Assembly: GCA_937868485.1 (NCBI GenBank)
Contig: CALMML010000018.1
Span: 1-39,727, forward strand
DNA length: 39,727 nucleotides
Source: an uncultured Myxococcales bacterium
Lineage (GTDB): Bacteria; Myxococcota_A; Polyangia; Palsa-1104; JAEUJZ01
Direction of reading: 5' to 3'
This document shows, piece after piece, positions 11,625 through 21,602 of the stretch (the first letter of the stretch is position 1; each line of letters opens with the position of its first letter). The translations under genes and the position numbers were made by a program. Below the pieces are notes generated by a model. The model was not told the DNA's origin. It searched no databases and saw nothing but the letters and a program-made list of their open reading frames with translations.

Positions 11625-11657
11625 CTCGTAACGCTGCTGAAATTGGAAAGGCGCTTC

Positions 11658-13649
11658 ATGTCTCGGCTGTCATTGTCGTCGCTGTTTGTGTTTGGAATGG
11701 GATGGCTGCCTTCGGCTGCGCTGGCGATGGATGCGCCGGTGACAGCGGTGACGGTCTATAGCGATCGGGCGCGTGTCACGCGGACGGCCAAGCTGTCGCT
11801 GCAAGGTGCGCAGCCGATGCGAGTCGAGCTGCCGCTCTTGCCCTCGCGGGTCAATCCGTCGAGCATTCGGGTGGATGTTCACTCGGCGCGGGGCGATGAT
11901 GCGTCGGTGCAGCGGGTCGAAGTGGCCTATGTCGATGCCAGCGAAGCGAAGCTGCCGACGCAAGAAGTGGTCAAGCTGCTGGAAGAACTGGATGCGCTCG
12001 ACGATCAGCTTGCGACGCTGCAAGCCGAGCAGAGTGCGTATGCCGCGCAGCTTCGCTTGGTCGGTCGAGTGCTTCCGTCGGCAAGTGGGCTCGCGCACAA
12101 TCAACCGGGTCAGCCGTCGCCGCCGAAGCTGAATCCGTCGGGCTGGGGCGCTGTGTTTGCGTGGACGCAGCAGCAGTACGAAAAGCTCCAGGGTAAGTCG
12201 CGACAGCTGAGTGAAAAGCAGCGACAGCTTCAGCTTCAGCGCAAGACGATCGTCGAAAAAGGTCAAAAGCTCGGTGGACTGCTTCGGCAAGGCGGACATC
12301 GGGTGACGGCGGTGCTGTTGGGATCGGGAACTGCGTCGGTGGAGCTGAGCTATGAGGTGTTCGGTGCGCGCTGGCGTCCGTCGTATGACCTTCAGCTGAT
12401 TCCCGACAAAAACCGTGTGGAGCTGTCGCTCGCCGGGCTGGTCAGTCAGGAAAGTGGCGAAGACTGGACCGATGCAAAGCTGACGCTATCGACGGCGGTT
12501 CCGGCCACTGCGACGCAGATTCCGAAGCTGCTGACGTGGAAGCTGGGAGAGCGAGAGCGGTTCATTCCGACGCCACAGCCTCAGCGTGAGCAAGTTCCGC
12601 CCGCGCCGCCGGTGCCAGCTGTGCCGATGTCGCTGGAGCACGATCCGATGGAAAGTCTGCGACGAAGATTTTCCAGCAAGATGGCGGTTGCGCCTCAGAC
12701 CTCCAGCTCGGGCAAGGACTACAAAAAGGCGGAAGTGGAAGTAGAAATGGCTCCCGTATCGACGATGGACGATGCGGATGGCTCGCCGATGGATCGCGTT
12801 GCACCGTCGCCGCCTCCGCCGCCTCCTCCTCTCGAAGAGCGAGTGACTGCGGTTGTATCGGAATCGATCCAGACGGGGGCTTCACTGTCGGCGGGGATGC
12901 CAAGTCGGATGCAGCTGCAGCGCAGCATGTCGGTTGCCAAGCCGGTCGTGCTGGCATCTGTTGGACTGAGTCCACCGCCAGGCTATCGTCCACCAGCACA
13001 GAGCGCGGCGCTGCTGGCGTCGGCGTCCGGTGGATATGACATGGTGTTTTCGGCGGCGGCTTCCGACACCGTAAAGAGCGGTCAAGGTGAGCGACGAGTG
13101 GCGCTTCTTTCACGAAGCTTTCCCGTCGAGGTTCATCGAAAGATCTTGCCGGCTCTCGCACCGGAAGCATTTCTGGTCGCGGACATCAAGAATCAAGGAC
13201 CGGATCCGCTTCCGTCGGCCCAAGCGCAGCTGTTCGTCGGTACCGATCCGGCTGGAGTGGCGCAGCTTTCGCTGATGGCTCCGGGTGAGGTGATCTCGCT
13301 GCCGCTGGGGCTTGATCATGCGATTCGTCCGGCGCGCAATGTCGCAGTGACCACCGTCGAAAAAGGCATCATTAGCAAAGACGAAGTGAGCGAATACACG
13401 GTGACGACCGAGATCGTGAATCCGTATCGGGTGCCGGTGCGGGCGCGGATTTCGGATCAGGTGCCGCTCGTCGGTGACAAGAACGTCGAGATCAAGCTGA
13501 TTCAGACGGAACCGGCGGCGCAGTTCGACGAAAAGACGGGCGTGCTGGAGTGGCGTCCGCAGATTGCGCCGGGAACGAAGCTTGTGACGAAGTTTGTGTA
13601 TTCGCTGCGACGGCCCAAAGGCTATCGACTCGGACAGGCGCAGTACTAG
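11658..13649 (+). CDS. MuiA-like protein (DUF4140/DUF4139), long form
   Basis: This is a 663-residue exported member of the mucoidy inhibitor A family, whose biochemical role is poorly defined. A Sec signal peptide (LSLSSLFVFGMGWLPSAALA) precedes the DUF4140 region, which opens with PVTAVTVYSDRARVTR. A coiled-coil stretch follows (about 105-215, rich in L, Q and K). Next is the DUF4139 beta domain (ELSYEVFGARWRPSYDLQL, SGEDWTDAKLTLSTA). A Pro/Ser-rich insert of roughly 150 residues (about 295-470, including SPPPPPPPLEER) splits DUF4139 before its C-terminal part (EYTVTTEIVNPYRVPV). The ATG at 11658 is preferred over an in-frame TTG at 11643 because GGAAAGG lies about seven bases before it. 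It is followed after 11 bases by a paralogue. Confidence 0.88.
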   Translation: MSRLSLSSLFVFGMGWLPSAALAMDAPVTAVTVYSDRARVTRTAKLSLQGAQPMRVELPLLPSRVNPSSIRVDVHSARGDDASVQRVEVAYVDASEAKLPTQEVVKLLEELDALDDQLATLQAEQSAYAAQLRLVGRVLPSASGLAHNQPGQPSPPKLNPSGWGAVFAWTQQQYEKLQGKSRQLSEKQRQLQLQRKTIVEKGQKLGGLLRQGGHRVTAVLLGSGTASVELSYEVFGARWRPSYDLQLIPDKNRVELSLAGLVSQESGEDWTDAKLTLSTAVPATATQIPKLLTWKLGERERFIPTPQPQREQVPPAPPVPAVPMSLEHDPMESLRRRFSSKMAVAPQTSSSGKDYKKAEVEVEMAPVSTMDDADGSPMDRVAPSPPPPPPPLEERVTAVVSESIQTGASLSAGMPSRMQLQRSMSVAKPVVLASVGLSPPPGYRPPAQSAALLASASGGYDMVFSAAASDTVKSGQGERRVALLSRSFPVEVHRKILPALAPEAFLVADIKNQGPDPLPSAQAQLFVGTDPAGVAQLSLMAPGEVISLPLGLDHAIRPARNVAVTTVEKGIISKDEVSEYTVTTEIVNPYRVPVRARISDQVPLVGDKNVEIKLIQTEPAAQFDEKTGVLEWRPQIAPGTKLVTKFVYSLRRPKGYRLGQAQY

Positions 13650-13653
13650 GAGG
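13648..13653 (+). promoter_or_regulatory. Strong Shine-Dalgarno overlapping the upstream stop codon
   Basis: AGGAGG begins within the TAG stop of the first MuiA-like gene and lies seven bases before the ATG of the second. This arrangement indicates translational coupling of the two paralogues. Confidence 0.7.
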
Positions 13654-13660
13654 CTGACCC

Positions 13661-15310
13661 ATGACGACGACGCGGACAAAAACATGGACCTTCGCGACGA
13701 CGCTGGTCTGGGCGGCACTGGGACTGCCTGATTCGGCGCGGGCGGATCGTGTCAGCAGCGTGGTGGTGTATCCCGATCGCGCGCAGGTGACGCGGCTTGG
13801 GCAAGCAAGCTGTGGCGACAGAGTGCTGGTTCGCTTTGCGGGGCTGCCTCCGTCGGCGGATGCGCAGTCGGTGCGGGCGCTGGTCGATGTGCCCGGCGCG
13901 ATGATTGTGGGCGTGCGGACCGAGACGGAGATCTTGAGCGGGCCGTATACCAAGCAGGTGGAAGTGCTCGACGATGAGCTTCAGCGGATCGACGACGAGC
14001 TAAATCAGATTGGCGATCAGCGTAGCCGAGAGCATGCCGTCGAGGCGGTGGCGACGCGCTATGAAGATGTGGCGGTGACGCTGCTCGGACGAGAGCTGAC
14101 CGAGCCGCCGGGAAGTCCGTCGACGCCAGCGCAGCTTCCGAAGGCGTGGACGCTGGCGCTTGAGGCTCCGCTGAAGGTTCGACTGGAGCATGCGGCGCAG
14201 AAGGGACCGCAGGAAAAGCGTGTTCGTGCGCTTCGTCTGAAGCAAGAAGAGCTGACGATCAAGCGACAGCGGCTGATTTCTGCATCGCAGCGTCGGCAGC
14301 TGAACGCGGAAGTGCTGCTCACTTGTCCAAGCTCTGCGACGGATCGCAAGGCGCAGGTCGAGCTGACGTATCTGGTCGGTGGCGCGGGCTTTTCGATGGA
14401 GCATGAAGCGCGGCTGTCGGCCCAAGGTGCGGTGGAGCTTTCAAGCTATGCGACGCTGACGCAGCGAACGGGCGAAGACTGGAAAGATGCGCAGGTGATT
14501 GTCTCGACGGCGGTTCCTCGGCAAAATGCGACACCGCCAGAGCTGATACCGCTGCGTGTGACAGCGACGGAACGAACGCCGCCCAAGCGGCTGCTGGTCA
14601 GTCGGACCGAAGAGCAGGTTCATCGCGAAGCGTCGGGGAGCAGTTCTGTTCCGACGACGGGCACGATGGGCGGCAAGAACCTTCAGCTGGTCGATCAAGG
14701 TCTGTCGGTTCAGTTTGTGGCGCCTCAGACGGCGGATGTTGCGGGAGATGGCACGCCGGTGCGGATTCGGGTGGCCCGAGCGGAGCTGCGCGGTCGTATC
14801 GTCTATCGGACGATTCCGAAGCTTCAGCCGTTTGTGTTTCGCGTCGCTGACTTGGTCAATACAGCGGGCTATCCGCTGCTTTCGGGACCCATCGATGTGT
14901 ATCGCCAAGGTCAGTTTTCGGCGCGCTATCCGCTGCCTCGGGTGGCTGCGGGCGAGCGATTTGAGCTGAGCTTTGGGCTGCTCGATCGGGTGAAGGTGAA
15001 GCGAACGATCCTCGAGGAGATTGCGCGCGACAAAGGCATCTTGGGCACGACGCGACGGCATCGCTACGGCTATCGCTTTGAAGTGGAAAGCTATCTGCCG
15101 GGCGGCGAAGACATTGAGCTGCTGGAGCACATTCCGGTGTCAGAGCTAGACGATGTCAAAGTGGCGCTCGATGCGAAGGCGACACCCGGTTATGAGCTGC
15201 GCGCGTCCGACGGAATTGTCAGCTACAAGCTGCGACTTTCGCCGGGGGAAAAGCGCGCGGTGGAGCTGCACTATTACGTTGATGCCCCGGCCAGCATGCT
15301 CGGCGAGTAA
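13661..15310 (+). CDS. MuiA-like protein (DUF4140/DUF4139), short paralogue
   Basis: This is a 549-residue second member of the same family as the gene just upstream. An N-terminal signal sequence (FATTLVWAALGLPDSARA) is followed by the DUF4140 start VSSVVVYPDRAQVTRLG. Two predicted coiled-coil stretches follow (about 90-130 and 165-200), then the DUF4139 domain (RTGEDWKDAQVIVSTAVP, FRVADLVNTAGYPLL, IPVSELDDVKVALD). It lacks the long proline-rich insert of its neighbour. The usual WRPSYDL segment of DUF4139 is replaced by a diverged GAGFSMEHEARL stretch. A strong AGGAGG overlapping the upstream stop decides the start. Tandem placement suggests that the two act together at the cell envelope, which is an inference. 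Confidence 0.88.
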   Translation: MTTTRTKTWTFATTLVWAALGLPDSARADRVSSVVVYPDRAQVTRLGQASCGDRVLVRFAGLPPSADAQSVRALVDVPGAMIVGVRTETEILSGPYTKQVEVLDDELQRIDDELNQIGDQRSREHAVEAVATRYEDVAVTLLGRELTEPPGSPSTPAQLPKAWTLALEAPLKVRLEHAAQKGPQEKRVRALRLKQEELTIKRQRLISASQRRQLNAEVLLTCPSSATDRKAQVELTYLVGGAGFSMEHEARLSAQGAVELSSYATLTQRTGEDWKDAQVIVSTAVPRQNATPPELIPLRVTATERTPPKRLLVSRTEEQVHREASGSSSVPTTGTMGGKNLQLVDQGLSVQFVAPQTADVAGDGTPVRIRVARAELRGRIVYRTIPKLQPFVFRVADLVNTAGYPLLSGPIDVYRQGQFSARYPLPRVAAGERFELSFGLLDRVKVKRTILEEIARDKGILGTTRRHRYGYRFEVESYLPGGEDIELLEHIPVSELDDVKVALDAKATPGYELRASDGIVSYKLRLSPGEKRAVELHYYVDAPASMLGE

Positions 15311-16945: not shown

Positions 16946-18415
16946 CTAGCTCGACGAGGACTCGTCACTCGAAAGCAGCGCACGAACTTCTTCCAGCGCT
17001 CGCTTGCCAAGCGCTGGCTGAATCATGCGCAGATACGACGCGTAGCCGAGCAGATAGGCGCGGAAGTTTCGACGACCGCGCGCTTGGCTCGCGACGCCAT
17101 GAACGCGACAGTTGTGCAAGATGGCGCGGAAGGTGCGACGAAGCTCTCTTGGCACCGATAGTCCGCTGTTGACGACGACGCCGGTGATGCGCTGCTGCGA
17201 CGAAGGACGGAGCACTTTTCGCTTGGTGACGTGCTCGGCAAAGCCTTCTTGCTGACAGATCTGATTGACCCACCACAGAAAGCGTCCCACGTCGCTGTGG
17301 TTGTCCATTCCATCGGCAAATGAAAACGTCATGTCGTCGGCATAGCGGGTGTAGCGAGCGCCGACTTTCTTGGCCAGCCCCGTGAGCCGTGCATCAAGCC
17401 GCATGCAGATCAGGTTCGCCAGCGCAGGTGACGTCGGAGCGCCTTGCGGAAGCACGCCGGGCCACACCACATAACCGTCGCTGAGCACGGATCGATGCGT
17501 CATAAGTCCAGCCAGCGTATCGCAGACTTCCGACGGAAATCCGTAGCCGCGCAGCAGTCCTCTCACACGGTAAAACGAGATCGTCGGGAAGAAGTCCTTG
17601 ATGTCGAGCTTCACCACCAGCTTCGCACCTTGATGCGGCTTGGCGTTCGTCAGCACCGATCGCTTCTTCACAAAGCCGTGCGCCGCCGTGTGCGTTGGCA
17701 GCTTGCTGAGTAGCTCGTCGAGGATCTGACGCTGAACCTTGCGCAGCGTCATTCGCGGCGCCGTGATCGTTCGGGTCTCGCCGCTCGACTTGGGAATCGC
17801 AAACGAGACATACGGACTGCCCGGACCGCTGCCCGCGCGCAGCAGCTTTCGCAGGTCACGCAGCGACGAAATGTGCAGCCACTGAAGCACGTCTTTGCGC
17901 GTCTCTAGCTTGGGCACACCCAGGTCGGACAGCGTCGGCTTCGGCTTGCGCTGCTTTCCTTTTTGCTGACGGACAAAGTACATGTTGCCAAACAGACCGG
18001 AAGACCAGCCCGTCGGATTCCAGCCTCCCAGCGCTTGGCTGTGTGGCTTTTGCGGCGTACGAAACCGACCGTCGGGCAGCGCCACATCGTCGAGCCGCAG
18101 CGCGCGCATCGATCGATGGGCTGCACTTTTGACAAGGCCACTTGGATCTTTGCAGAGCACGCGCAGATACCGTCCGGCCTGACGCTGAGTGCAGCTCAAA
18201 CGAACGAAGTGCGCGGCCTGAACACGCTGACGAGGATCGGGACTTTGCACAAGCTGCGCAAGCTGTCGCGACGTGAAGCGACTGACGTAGAAGCGCGCGA
18301 CCTCGTATTCGGCCAGATCTTTGTGCGCGTCGAGCAGCGCCAGCACTTTTTCCCAGTTGTCGTCGAGCGATTCGCACAGCGGAATCAGCTCCAAAAGCAA
18401 GCTCGACAGGCTCAT
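16946..18415 (-). CDS. Retron-type reverse transcriptase with N-terminal extension
   Basis: This 489-residue reverse transcriptase is predicted to make msDNA from the adjacent structured RNA. Polymerase motifs are intact: catalytic motif A VVKLDIKDFFPTI (D271), PQGAPTSPALAN (323-334) and RYADDMTFSF with YADD at 358-361. Retron-specific markers are NAKPH at 257-261, matching the NAxxH motif of region X, and ITG at 410-412 (ITGVVVN), matching the VTG motif of region Y. Residues 1-110 are a helical extension with two HEAT-like units (SPDPRQRVQAAHFVRL and KDPSGLVKSAAHRSMRAL). A linker follows with an odd GWNPTGWSSGLFG motif (131-143). Extended N-termini are known in myxobacterial retron RTs. AAAGGA lies eight bases before the ATG, and the RNA ends 42 bases upstream. 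There are no group II intron maturase or endonuclease domains. Confidence 0.93.
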   Translation of the reverse strand: MSLSSLLLELIPLCESLDDNWEKVLALLDAHKDLAEYEVARFYVSRFTSRQLAQLVQSPDPRQRVQAAHFVRLSCTQRQAGRYLRVLCKDPSGLVKSAAHRSMRALRLDDVALPDGRFRTPQKPHSQALGGWNPTGWSSGLFGNMYFVRQQKGKQRKPKPTLSDLGVPKLETRKDVLQWLHISSLRDLRKLLRAGSGPGSPYVSFAIPKSSGETRTITAPRMTLRKVQRQILDELLSKLPTHTAAHGFVKKRSVLTNAKPHQGAKLVVKLDIKDFFPTISFYRVRGLLRGYGFPSEVCDTLAGLMTHRSVLSDGYVVWPGVLPQGAPTSPALANLICMRLDARLTGLAKKVGARYTRYADDMTFSFADGMDNHSDVGRFLWWVNQICQQEGFAEHVTKRKVLRPSSQQRITGVVVNSGLSVPRELRRTFRAILHNCRVHGVASQARGRRNFRAYLLGYASYLRMIQPALGKRALEEVRALLSSDESSSS

Positions 18416-18423
18416 GCTGGCTG

Positions 18424-18429
18424 TCCTTT
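18424..18429 (-). promoter_or_regulatory. Shine-Dalgarno of the retron RT
   Basis: AAAGGA on the minus strand lies eight bases before the ATG at 18415. It sits just downstream of the inverted-repeat-bounded RNA, so translation of the RT can proceed from the same transcript. Confidence 0.6.
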
Positions 18430-18445
18430 CCGACGAGACGTGCGG

Positions 18446-18458
18446 AGGGAAAAAGAAA
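18446..18458. repeat. Flanking direct repeat, copy 1
   Basis: GGAAAAAGAAA (18448-18458) just outside the a2 arm recurs exactly at 18646-18656 outside the a1 arm. The two copies thus flank the predicted RNA in direct orientation. A matching pair could mark a duplication at an insertion or a shared transcript element. Confidence 0.55.
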
Positions 18459-18476
18459 CAGCGTTCCTTCGGTCGC
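18458..18476 (-). repeat. Retron a2 inverted-repeat arm
   Basis: This is the 3' arm (in the minus-strand transcript) of the repeat bounding the predicted msr-msd. Fourteen bases from 18458 to 18471 pair perfectly with 18607-18620. After one mismatch, four more pair. Confidence 0.85.
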
Positions 18477-18491
18477 AGCTACTTGCGTGGC
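18477..18491. repeat. Internal direct repeat in the retron RNA, copy 1
   Basis: This 15-base stretch (AGCTACTTGCGTGGC on the plus strand) matches 18589-18603 at 13 of 15 positions. The two copies lie immediately inside a2 and a1 respectively, in direct orientation. One copy contains the candidate branch guanosine and the other lies at the expected start of reverse transcription. Confidence 0.6.
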
Positions 18492-18588
18492 AGCGGTGCC
18501 CGAGCTGAGAAAAGCCGCAAGCGGCAGCTCGGTCCAGCGCATTGTCCATTGTAGGTCGTACGCACCCGCGACGTAGCATCGCGGAAGA

Positions 18589-18603
18589 AGCTAACTGCGT
18601 GGC
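18589..18603. repeat. Internal direct repeat in the retron RNA, copy 2
   Basis: AGCTAACTGCGTGGC on the plus strand is the partner of 18477-18491. On the transcribed strand it reads through the TTAGC candidate branch site. Confidence 0.6.
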
Positions 18604-18620
18604 GATCGAAGGAACGCTGT
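18602..18620 (-). repeat. Retron a1 inverted-repeat arm
   Basis: This is the 5' arm of the same repeat. It starts about 100 bases after the stop of the HEAT/AKR gene. The arms enclose 125 bases. Confidence 0.85.
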
Positions 18621-18645
18621 CCGTTCTATGTTCGCAGGCGGCCTT

Positions 18646-18656
18646 GGAAAAAGAAA
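18646..18656. repeat. Flanking direct repeat, copy 2
   Basis: This is the second exact copy of the 11-base GGAAAAAGAAA element, 26 bases outside the a1 arm. Copy 1 abuts the a2 arm, so the spacing is not symmetrical. Confidence 0.55.
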
Positions 18657-18722
18657 GGGCCTGTCGAGCGCTCGCGCCGAGTGCTGGCTTGTGTGACGCG
18701 GTGTGGTGAGGTCGCTGCGTGC

Positions 18723-21602
18723 TCATGACCGACGCTCCGGGCCGCTCTTGGCGTGTCGTCTCGTCGATGCTGAGGTGATCGACTCGCCTTGTGGGGCAGG
18801 GTGTTCGGCCAGCAGCTCCGCCAGTCGCTGCGAGATCGTCGTCGGCTCATTTTGCGCATGCAGCGGGTTTTCGTGACCTTTGCGAACCAGCGCGTTGAAG
18901 CGACGACTCATCGCGTGAACCGCTTCGCCGTGACGAATCAGGCTCTCTTTGCGATCTTCCGTCAGCGTCAGATCTTGCATCACCGTCAGGTTGTCATCGA
19001 GTTCCGACGGATAGCTCGGAGCCGAGATCACCGCCGTCACACCGCGCTGCGCAAGCGAATAGCGATAACAGTCCGCCGCCGTCGGACGAATCCGTGGTGC
19101 AGGCTGACCCGGAATCGCTCGCAACAGCCGTCCATACGAAGTCGCCGAAAACGTCAGAAGCCCGACGCCCGCCTGCTCACACTGCGGAAACAGCGACTGC
19201 TCTGCACCGGGATGCGCTGCGCTGTGACGAGTCATCAGCACATCGATTCCACCGTCGGAAATGGCAGCCTGCGCCAGGCTTCGAGCGTGCGTCGACAAGC
19301 CCGCTGCGCGAATTTTTCCATCCGCTTTGAGCTGCGCCAGCGTCTTGCGAACTTCGTCGGACAGTCGCTCCGGCGAGCGCACCCAGAACAGCAAAAACAC
19401 ATCCAAGCAGTCGGTCTTCAGTCGTCGCAGCGCGCGCTCGACATCCGCCGTGATGCTGTCGCCGTCGCCTTCGTAGCTGCCGGTGATGATGTGTAGCTTC
19501 CGTCGCTGCGTCCGAATCACCCGAGTCAGCGCCTGATAGCCCGGCTCCCAGAAGAATAGGTTCACGCCTGCGTCAATGGCTCGATCGTAGGTGCGCGGCG
19601 ACAGCTCGTGAACACCCGACAGTGCCAGCGGCGACACAAGTAGATCGGTCTGTCCCAGTCTGCGACGGAGCGCTGATGTCTGCGGTTCCTGTCGCGTCGC
19701 TGGCTGTTCGGATCGAATCGTCGGATGCGGATTCGGCTGCGCTTCCCCGCGCAGCGTCGCAATCGCTGACAACAGTGACGCCACTTCGTTCGGGTCATCG
19801 ACTTGCTGTAGCTCGCGACGAAGTGTGCCCAGCGCATCGGGATCGTCCATCGCTGCCTTGAGCTGCTCGGAATACGCCGCCAGTCGCTGTTCAGACGAGA
19901 GCTGTCCGCTTGCCAGCAGCGCACGCAAGCTCGTGTCCAGGTCGGGATGCTCGGTGATTGCCGTCGTCGCTGCGTGCCTGACACTTTGGTGACGATCCCG
20001 ACAAAGCTGGAGCAAAATGGGCAAGTCTTCCGTCGCTGATGCGAAGGATGAAGCGCGCGTCCTTTGCCACGGATCGTCGTCGCGCGACGCTGTTTCCAGC
20101 ACCAGCTTTCGCTGGGCGTGCGTAAGCTTCTGTCTTCGTCGCCACAGCTGTCGCAGCACTTCGCGTCTCGTCTGTGGATCTGGATCGTGCGCAAGCCAGT
20201 GACCCAGCGTTTCCGTCGCCAGCGCTGGCACAATGGCCTGACGAATCAGCGGATCATCGCTGGTTTGGTAGCGTGTCACGTCGGAAAGTCGTCCAAGCGT
20301 GAGCAGTGCCCGCAGCGCGCGTGCTCGAACCAGCGGATGATCTTCGTCGAGCAGCCTGTGGATGAGCGGCAGGTCGACGCCAGACATCGCTCGTTCCAGC
20401 AGCGCAAGCTTCGTCAGCGGACGCGCATCCGGTCCAAACAGAAGCGGCAGCAGTCGTCCCAGCTCTGACTCTTTGACGCGCGTCACCAGCGCATGCAGCG
20501 CCGCCGCCCGAACTTCTGCATCGTCATCTTCGAGCCGCTTGTCAAACAGCGTCGTATCGGTTTCGCCCAGCTCATCCAGACAGCGCACCGCTGCGTGGCG
20601 AGCCAGCGGATGCGGATGTTCCAGCGCCGCGCGTACCGGATTTCGTCGTCCGCCATTGTGCAGCAGCTTGTGACAGGCCCACATCACCGCACCGACGGGA
20701 GACTCCGCATCGCTCAAGATTCGCGTGGTCAGCGCCATTGCGCGTCGTCCCGTCCTCGACAGCAGATCCCACGTACTTTCCAGCGCGTGCGGCAGGCCGG
20801 GAATCTGCAAAAACGGCAGCACTTCCTCAAGCTCGGTCGCTCGACTGAGCCGCGCCAATCGATCCACCGCCAGCTCGCGAAGCTGGGTGTGCGGGTCCGA
20901 CAGAAACGGCAGCAGCTCAGCGGGCGTTAGCTCGGACAGCGGACGCGCTCGCAGCCGAGCGGTCGTCACCGCCGGATCGGGATTGGCCAGCGCTTGATCG
21001 GTCGGACGCGGCGCTTCGGCCTTGTAGGACGCCAGCGCGGGCTCTACGCGTGCTTGCAGCTCCAGCTGGGCGCCCAGCGCGGCTTCGGACATGCCTTGCG
21101 TGACCGTCAGGATCTGCTCGCGCTCATCGGGCAGCGCATGCCACAGCGTCTCCAGCGCGCGAATGGCGGCATGACGGACGCGCCAAAACGGATCACCGAG
21201 CACTTGCTTGATGGTTCCAATTGCTTCGCGGTGTCCGCTTCGGGCCAGCGACAGCGTGGCTGTGCGACGGACCCACCAGATTGGATCGAGCCGTGCCAGA
21301 TGCGACAGCCGGTGCTGCACACTCGGAGCGAGCGCCTGCGGACACAGTCCCAGCGCACGGGCAGCGGCTTCGCGAACGCTCGGTCGATCATCGTAGGTTG
21401 CGTCGTGAAGCCACCGAACAGGATCGACCTTCACCGACTTGGCCAGCACCTGCGCGGCGTCGGCTCGCACGCGACCATCCGTGTCCGAAAGCAGCGCAGC
21501 GCGAGCGGCATAGACATCGGCAGTGCAGTGCGGATCCAGATCGGACAGCGCAGCCAGTCGAACATCGGGCGATCGTGACAGCAGCCTAGTGCGCGCGTGC
21601 AT
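18723..21602 (-). CDS. HEAT-repeat protein with C-terminal degenerate aldo/keto reductase domain; candidate retron effector
   Basis: This is a 959-residue protein. Residues about 10-620 are tandem HEAT-like helical repeats, for example DTDGRVRADAAQVLAKS, DDRPSVREAAARALGL, GDPFWRVRHAAIRALETL and DDDAEVRAAALHALV. A Pro/Gln-rich linker (about 620-645) leads to an aldo/keto-reductase fold (about 645-895): RRRLGQTDLLVSPLALSG, RALRRLKTDCLDVFLL, LKADGKIRAAGLSTHA and GVTAVISAPSYPSELDDN. Aligned to the family, the catalytic Asp, Lys and His positions are F684, G708 and F739; only the Tyr (Y689) remains. Reductase activity is therefore unlikely, while cofactor binding could persist. GGGAGG lies four bases before the ATG. 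The retron RNA begins about 100 bases after its stop on the same strand, making it a candidate partner of the RT. The effector role is inferred. Confidence 0.88.
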   Translation of the reverse strand: MHARTRLLSRSPDVRLAALSDLDPHCTADVYAARAALLSDTDGRVRADAAQVLAKSVKVDPVRWLHDATYDDRPSVREAAARALGLCPQALAPSVQHRLSHLARLDPIWWVRRTATLSLARSGHREAIGTIKQVLGDPFWRVRHAAIRALETLWHALPDEREQILTVTQGMSEAALGAQLELQARVEPALASYKAEAPRPTDQALANPDPAVTTARLRARPLSELTPAELLPFLSDPHTQLRELAVDRLARLSRATELEEVLPFLQIPGLPHALESTWDLLSRTGRRAMALTTRILSDAESPVGAVMWACHKLLHNGGRRNPVRAALEHPHPLARHAAVRCLDELGETDTTLFDKRLEDDDAEVRAAALHALVTRVKESELGRLLPLLFGPDARPLTKLALLERAMSGVDLPLIHRLLDEDHPLVRARALRALLTLGRLSDVTRYQTSDDPLIRQAIVPALATETLGHWLAHDPDPQTRREVLRQLWRRRQKLTHAQRKLVLETASRDDDPWQRTRASSFASATEDLPILLQLCRDRHQSVRHAATTAITEHPDLDTSLRALLASGQLSSEQRLAAYSEQLKAAMDDPDALGTLRRELQQVDDPNEVASLLSAIATLRGEAQPNPHPTIRSEQPATRQEPQTSALRRRLGQTDLLVSPLALSGVHELSPRTYDRAIDAGVNLFFWEPGYQALTRVIRTQRRKLHIITGSYEGDGDSITADVERALRRLKTDCLDVFLLFWVRSPERLSDEVRKTLAQLKADGKIRAAGLSTHARSLAQAAISDGGIDVLMTRHSAAHPGAEQSLFPQCEQAGVGLLTFSATSYGRLLRAIPGQPAPRIRPTAADCYRYSLAQRGVTAVISAPSYPSELDDNLTVMQDLTLTEDRKESLIRHGEAVHAMSRRFNALVRKGHENPLHAQNEPTTISQRLAELLAEHPAPQGESITSASTRRHAKSGPERRS

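Follow-up and report, generated by a model that had tools for sequence, protein, structure and literature searches.

Organization of the locus

The window analyzed here (the whole 39,727-nt stretch of DNA, from an uncultured Myxococcales bacterium) carries, in this order on its minus strand, a gene for a fusion of HEAT repeats with an aldo-keto-reductase-like domain (HEAT-AKR; 959 aa, 18723..21602), a structured msr-msd RNA, and a gene for a retron-class reverse transcriptase (RT; 489 aa, 16946..18415). The HEAT-AKR gene, assigned from Pfam matches, synteny, and co-occurrence as the presumed effector or partner, lies directly upstream on the RT strand, with its stop codon about 100 bases before the first repeat (a1) of the RNA. 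The original prediction, made from the sequence alone, described a complete retron at this site; its RT and msr-msd RNA hold up, but this third component escaped it. There is no evident defence island: within the window genus, the retron is flanked by genes for metabolism and transport, and these are conserved together with it. Also kept beside the retron in this genus is a pair of adjacent ORFs (window positions 11643-15310; 668 and 549 aa) that are alike at their start (VYSDRARVTR and VYPDRAQVTR) and are probably paralogues. A 104-aa ORF overlapping the RNA (18412-18726) was rejected as unsupported as a gene.

The reverse transcriptase and its clade

PADLOC, Pfam, and structure matches place the RT domain at approximately residues 170-484. 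The best PADLOC model is RT_XIII (369 bits), followed by further retron RT models, and Pfam matches RVT_1 at 1.5e-21. The motif set of retron RTs (NAxxH, YADD, and a VTG-type motif) is met exactly where it had been predicted, by NAKPH at residues 257-261, YADD at 358-361, and ITG at 410-412; LPQG is at residue 322. A structure search returns Ec86 first (4e-20), then Ec67, Ec78/Eco7, and Eco8, with group II intron and diversity-generating retroelement (DGR) RTs appearing only later. Assignment to either of the last two classes is ruled out, as neither is closest by sequence or by fold.

In a phylogenetic tree of 104 RTs, the window RT and 20 relatives form one clade (SH-aLRT 93), which is near to, yet separate from, the other myxobacterial retron-type RTs; placing the RT in such a tree was a check proposed with the original prediction. 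A search of plasmids returned distant retron RTs and nothing closer. Members of the clade are extended at the N terminus by about 150 aa; the first part of this extension in the window RT (residues 1-111, 18083..18415, minus strand) is alpha-helical and HEAT-like, with six helices in the predicted model (pLDDT about 57 to 86). The HEAT-like assignment rests on this model and on homologues: HEAT_2 matches were found in the extension of 11 of 18 RT homologues at a lax limit (best, 1.8e-6), and at the same limit none was found in that of the window RT itself.

Additional genes follow the RT in parts of the clade. Directly 3′ of the RT, several genera encode a related protein of ~320 to 455 aa (L114 4124-5491, L123 9797-10762, L124 9299-10291, and L125 9901-10887), recognized by Pfam as LRR in L114 only and not present at this position in the window. 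In a distant RT subclade, the RT is followed by an FGE-sulfatase-like gene (L127 5346-6569, L128 6644-7699, L129 3280-4155, and L130 4288-5394), whose domain is identified by Pfam in L127, L128, and L130 and by homology in L129.

The msr-msd RNA

The RNA is bounded by two long repeats, a1 (18602..18620) and a2 (18458..18476), on the minus strand like all features named in this section. The predicted 14-bp perfect inverted repeat (18458-18471 with 18607-18620) is confirmed base for base and is alone of its kind (arms 40 to 250 bases apart) in the window, against 0.1 expected per Markov-shuffled window; if one mismatch is tolerated, it grows to 19 positions, of which 18 pair. It encloses 135 bases, not the 125 first counted, and 42 bases separate the end of a2 from the RT start codon, as predicted. 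Both of the hairpins anticipated between the repeats are present: an msr hairpin (18566..18584) of the form CCGCGATG-CTA-CGTCGCGG, paired in 9/9 aligned loci, and an msd hairpin (18500..18532), with compensatory double changes among relatives. The proposed TTAGC branch site is also in place (18590..18594), with guanosine 18591 as the predicted branch nucleotide; its TAGC is invariant in the nine aligned loci and is the commonest priming motif among known retrons (PMC6868368). An AAGTAG box (18479..18484), invariant in 9/9 loci, presumably marks where the DNA template begins, which gives an estimated msd of ~70 nt (~18479-18550).

Two checks had been suggested for this RNA. Folding of positions 18440-18640 gives z = −4.06, with 0/200 shuffled sequences equally good, whereas the covariance search of the window against Rfam yielded no gathering-level match (at lax thresholds nothing relevant appeared, the sole match, isrK, being at chance level), and the RNA is backed instead by comparative evidence.

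We aligned the RNAs of nine loci of the RT clade, including those of other species. The distance from TAGC to AAGTAG is 109 to 113 nt in all nine, and the msr hairpin is nearly invariant, keeping the pattern CCGCGATG-nnn-CGTCGCGG. Midway, before the second hairpin, comes a box that reads CACTGAA in most loci and CAATGGA in the window genus, and the 3′ part carries GCAAGTAG or GAAAGTAG. Double changes affect half of the 20 predicted pairs overall, and the second hairpin is changed on both sides of many of its pairs. The sequences of a1 and a2 are wholly different between groups, but their complementarity is kept: duplexes of a1 with its own a2 have energies of −29 to −51 kcal/mol, compared with mostly −12 to −31 for partners from unrelated loci. 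Over 30 RNA copies, the mean is −39 for own pairs versus −24, and in 29 of the 30 the own pair is one of the four best. The window and L001, which belong to the same genus, have an identical 118-nt RNA core, whereas the HEAT-AKR proteins share only 78% identity. Judged by its conserved sequence, the RNA fits the expected msr-msd design, with production of msDNA being inferred from that design.

A covariance model of the core of this RNA matches 16 of 379 genomes of the phylum, all of which have both the RT and HEAT-AKR; 8 of these 16 were not used in building the model. Within the distant RT subclade, the model found nothing significant in G122, G136, G252, G257, or G284. Weak matches occur in L128 (9252-9324, E 0.005) and L147 (85-165, E 0.001), the former just 5′ of the RT ORF and possibly a shorter msr-msd form.

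That some other class of RT merely sits next to a chance inverted repeat is an explanation we can scarcely entertain: the lack of an Rfam match is what it has in its favor, and it is contradicted by the covariation, the conserved spacing, the specificity of the RNA model, and the RT phylogeny. With retron models scoring highest, a retron-RT fold, and an RNA bearing compensatory changes, the original reading of the element as a retron is upheld.

The HEAT-AKR protein

The HEAT-AKR fusion matches HEAT_2 (1.5e-29) and Aldo_ket_red (2e-16) in Pfam, and its C-terminal domain satisfies a test for AKR-type sequence. This domain (approximately residues 645-905; 18888..19670, minus strand) is divergent, with matches to AKR structures in the PDB from 8.8e-12, and does not meet the canonical catalytic tetrad (Asp, Tyr, Lys, and His). 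The catalytic His is lost, the LLHW His of 4pmj being aligned to the Phe of LLFW in the window protein; the Asp and Lys positions were placed by motif reading only. Across 15 homologues, FWEP is present in all (as FFWEP, it replaces the usual FDTA region), the strand expected to supply the Lys keeps none and has a GT or GS pair instead, and further motifs comprise an LLFWVRS-like stretch lacking the catalytic His, STHxR or SSHxR, and an RHSAAHPGAE-like stretch. The domain has its own set of new invariant residues (W685, E686, P687, R742, H772, R774, R792, H797, and E801). Predicted structures of three HEAT-AKR sequences display a clear alpha solenoid and an AKR part of low confidence.

Members of the family are 800 to 1160 aa long, and HEAT-AKR diverges more quickly than the RT does, with 78% identity to the nearest relative versus 89% for the RT. 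A search of phages for HEAT-AKR gave weak generic AKR matches and nothing more. L181, in another genome, encodes a stand-alone AKR-like protein in which the catalytic His is likewise missing and two motifs of the fused domain, IMVRYNAAHPGAE and DCYRF, recur. Since this protein has parts of the fused-domain pattern, the fused domain probably derives from a divergent AKR subfamily, as far as sequence motifs can indicate. By analogy only, its activity would be expected to be directed at a nucleotide or cofactor; with the canonical catalytic His missing, the chemistry is a guess.

The pairing of an RT best matched by RT_XIII with a HEAT-type protein, as occurs in type XIII systems, raises the possibility that the locus is an ordinary type XIII retron, consisting of an RT and a HEAT-ARM protein. 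We consider this unlikely. Although RT_XIII is the best model for the clade, it gives these RTs 333 to 382 bits versus 429 to 482 for other myxobacterial and Psychrobacter/Thiofilum RTs, a shortfall of ~50 to 150 bits, and the clade is separate in the tree. The window genome has no HEAT-ARM_XIII match at E 1e-30, and HEAT-AKR itself matches that model only weakly (25 bits), over the HEAT stretch. Moreover, true HEAT-ARM_XIII proteins adjoin other RTs in G236, G353, G335, and G122, separate from the HEAT-AKR systems of those genomes. Membership in type XIII as PADLOC models it is rejected on the partner, HEAT-ARM_XIII not being met.

Linkage of the RT, the RNA, and HEAT-AKR

We searched the same 379 genomes separately for the RT clade and for HEAT-AKR. 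Each is present in 21 genomes and both are present in 20, such that HEAT-AKR occurs in 20/21 genomes with the RT clade versus 1/358 of the others (Fisher p ~5e-31). This value ignores kinship among genomes; the genomes involved represent 14 genera and at least eight families. The lone genome having only the RT (G257) is 65% complete. Of 22 RT-clade regions inspected, 16 have a HEAT-AKR homologue adjoining the RT, in two orientations. At five loci (L115-L118 and L124), the covariance model locates RNA copies absent from its training set directly 3′ of HEAT-AKR, with other genes between the RNA and the RT; further such copies are beside HEAT-AKR in G236, whose RT is 636 kb distant, and in G324, whose RT is on a different contig.

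It is conceivable that the retron functions without HEAT-AKR, the upstream gene being merely a conserved, co-inherited neighbour. The whole neighbourhood is common to three genomes of the window genus, where inheritance alone would suffice to explain the linkage. However, the association holds over the 14 genera in varied gene orders and orientations, and the RNA remains beside HEAT-AKR, not the RT, in G236 and G324, which is hard to explain unless the three parts cooperate. Co-inheritance alone is thus quite improbable in our estimation, and HEAT-AKR is very likely a functional partner of the RT and the RNA, with its role as effector inferred from genetic association.

The window element is a retron with near certainty, although that it makes msDNA is an inference. 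What the sequences show is an RT of the retron class, a structured msr-msd RNA whose a1 and a2 coevolve, and the near-perfect co-occurrence of RT, RNA, and HEAT-AKR. We regard it as likely that the locus represents a retron of three parts, the RT, the msr-msd RNA, and a HEAT-AKR partner, and that it belongs to a myxobacterial clade of its own.

Tandem and dispersed RNAs

Some relatives carry more than one copy of the RNA. Two or three ncRNAs are arranged in tandem directly 3′ of HEAT-AKR in L115 (7034-7376), L116 (6585-6928), L117 (13751-14095), L118 (11019-11367), L124 (3990-4334), and L144 (437-1005). In addition, G236 and G324 each have at least six RNAs scattered over the chromosome with unrelated genes as neighbours, and the positions correspond between these two species of one genus. 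One dispersed RNA has 95% identity over 184 nt versus ~80 to 85% in its flanks. Among dispersed copies the msr is conserved and the msd hairpins are unrelated. Such msr-msd-like RNAs, with intact a1 and a2 and no RT of the clade nearby, were found at L163-L172 (G236 and G324) and L173-L174 (G335). About 0.9 kb downstream of a gene for a protein with 13 HEAT_2 matches (L174 7131-9620), a possible second partner, lies an orphan RNA of G335.

No RNA of the family was found beside the RT in G236 or G324, and with the RT lacking an adjoining RNA there, the dispersed RNAs point to an RT that acts in trans. Whether G236, G324, and probably G335 possess a network in which one RT serves several msr-msd RNAs, yielding a repertoire of msDNAs that guards a single HEAT-AKR, perhaps with a separate phage function monitored by each msDNA, is a question on which we are evenly divided.

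Proposed function and implications

By inference from the retron family, the RT would bind the folded RNA, prime at G18591 of TTAGC, and copy the ~70-nt msd into a branched RNA-DNA molecule. With less assurance, we suppose that the RT-msDNA particle keeps HEAT-AKR inactive, possibly via the HEAT-like N terminus of the RT, and that a phage disturbing the msDNA or the RT would release HEAT-AKR, whose altered AKR barrel may then act on a cofactor or nucleotide such that growth stops. We know of no HEAT-AKR protein with established toxic activity. An antiphage, toxin-antitoxin-like role is the most likely one, but it is unproven, being inferred in the absence of expression or phage data.

The tripartite system could instead be real and non-killing, a regulatory or redox-sensing device in which HEAT-AKR is a cofactor sensor under msDNA control. 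This we hold to be a lesser but appreciable possibility: the AKR active site is altered, the dispersed RNAs hold their positions between two congeneric species, and myxobacterial retrons have been reported to be inherited vertically (PMC6868368). On the other hand, the distribution is patchy (21/379 genomes), HEAT-AKR evolves fast, and retrons are described as immune systems against phages in every case with a demonstrated function (PMC12548924).

HEAT-AKR would add a class to the retron effectors. It supplies a testable partner for a myxobacterial retron group that had no assigned one in the sources consulted, making the role of retrons in these bacteria testable as well. From the tandem and dispersed RNAs of relatives, it seems that a retron RT can use several templates in trans, a property that would also be useful for in-cell DNA production.

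HEAT-AKR is absent as a retron partner from the PADLOC models and from the literature that we searched. To our knowledge, and judged by those models, it is also new relative to Mestre 2020 and to the 2024 retron census; its novelty drops if the Mestre 2020 tables contain HEAT-AKR as a minor association.

Comparison with known retrons

Retrons were first found in 1984, in myxobacteria, as abundant msDNAs. Two known kinds of retron resemble the window retron in part. Type XIII provides the nearest RT family model and has a HEAT-type partner; that partner is a HEAT-ARM protein of 1972 model positions, whereas the partner here combines HEAT repeats with an AKR domain in 800 to 1160 aa. Retron-Eco1 (Ec86) is the best structural match of the RT and likewise consists of an RT, an RNA, and a separate effector protein, but in place of HEAT-AKR it has an NAD-hydrolysing effector that resembles nucleoside deoxyribosyltransferases.

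The window retron is presumably sister, or else closely related, to the classical myxobacterial retrons, although the named Mx162, Mx65, Sa163, and Ne144 RT sequences are not among the 104 in our tree. The RTs of these four have an extended N terminus, and their RNAs have long a1/a2 repeats and an AGC priming site (PMC6868368); the 489-aa window RT likewise has an N-terminal extension, with long a1/a2 repeats and an AGC context. Differences lie in priming (CAGC or GAGC in Mx162, Sa163, and Mx65; TAGC here) and in the msDNA (~160 nt in Mx162 and Sa163; ~70 nt here by estimate). Other myxobacterial retron-type RTs, family f10 (L102-L110), group apart from the window clade in the tree; HEAT-AKR is lacking from the f10 genomes G178, G355, and G150.

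Literature searches on retrons with AKR or HEAT proteins, on Sorangium or Nannocystis retrons, and on RNAs acting in trans returned nothing beyond Ne160. This element, Retron-Nex1, is alike in having duplicated msr-msd copies with no RT within a kilobase (PMC6868368). The relatives of the window retron differ from it in that their copies are chromosome-wide and have unrelated msd hairpins, and in that both the RT clade and a partner protein are identified.
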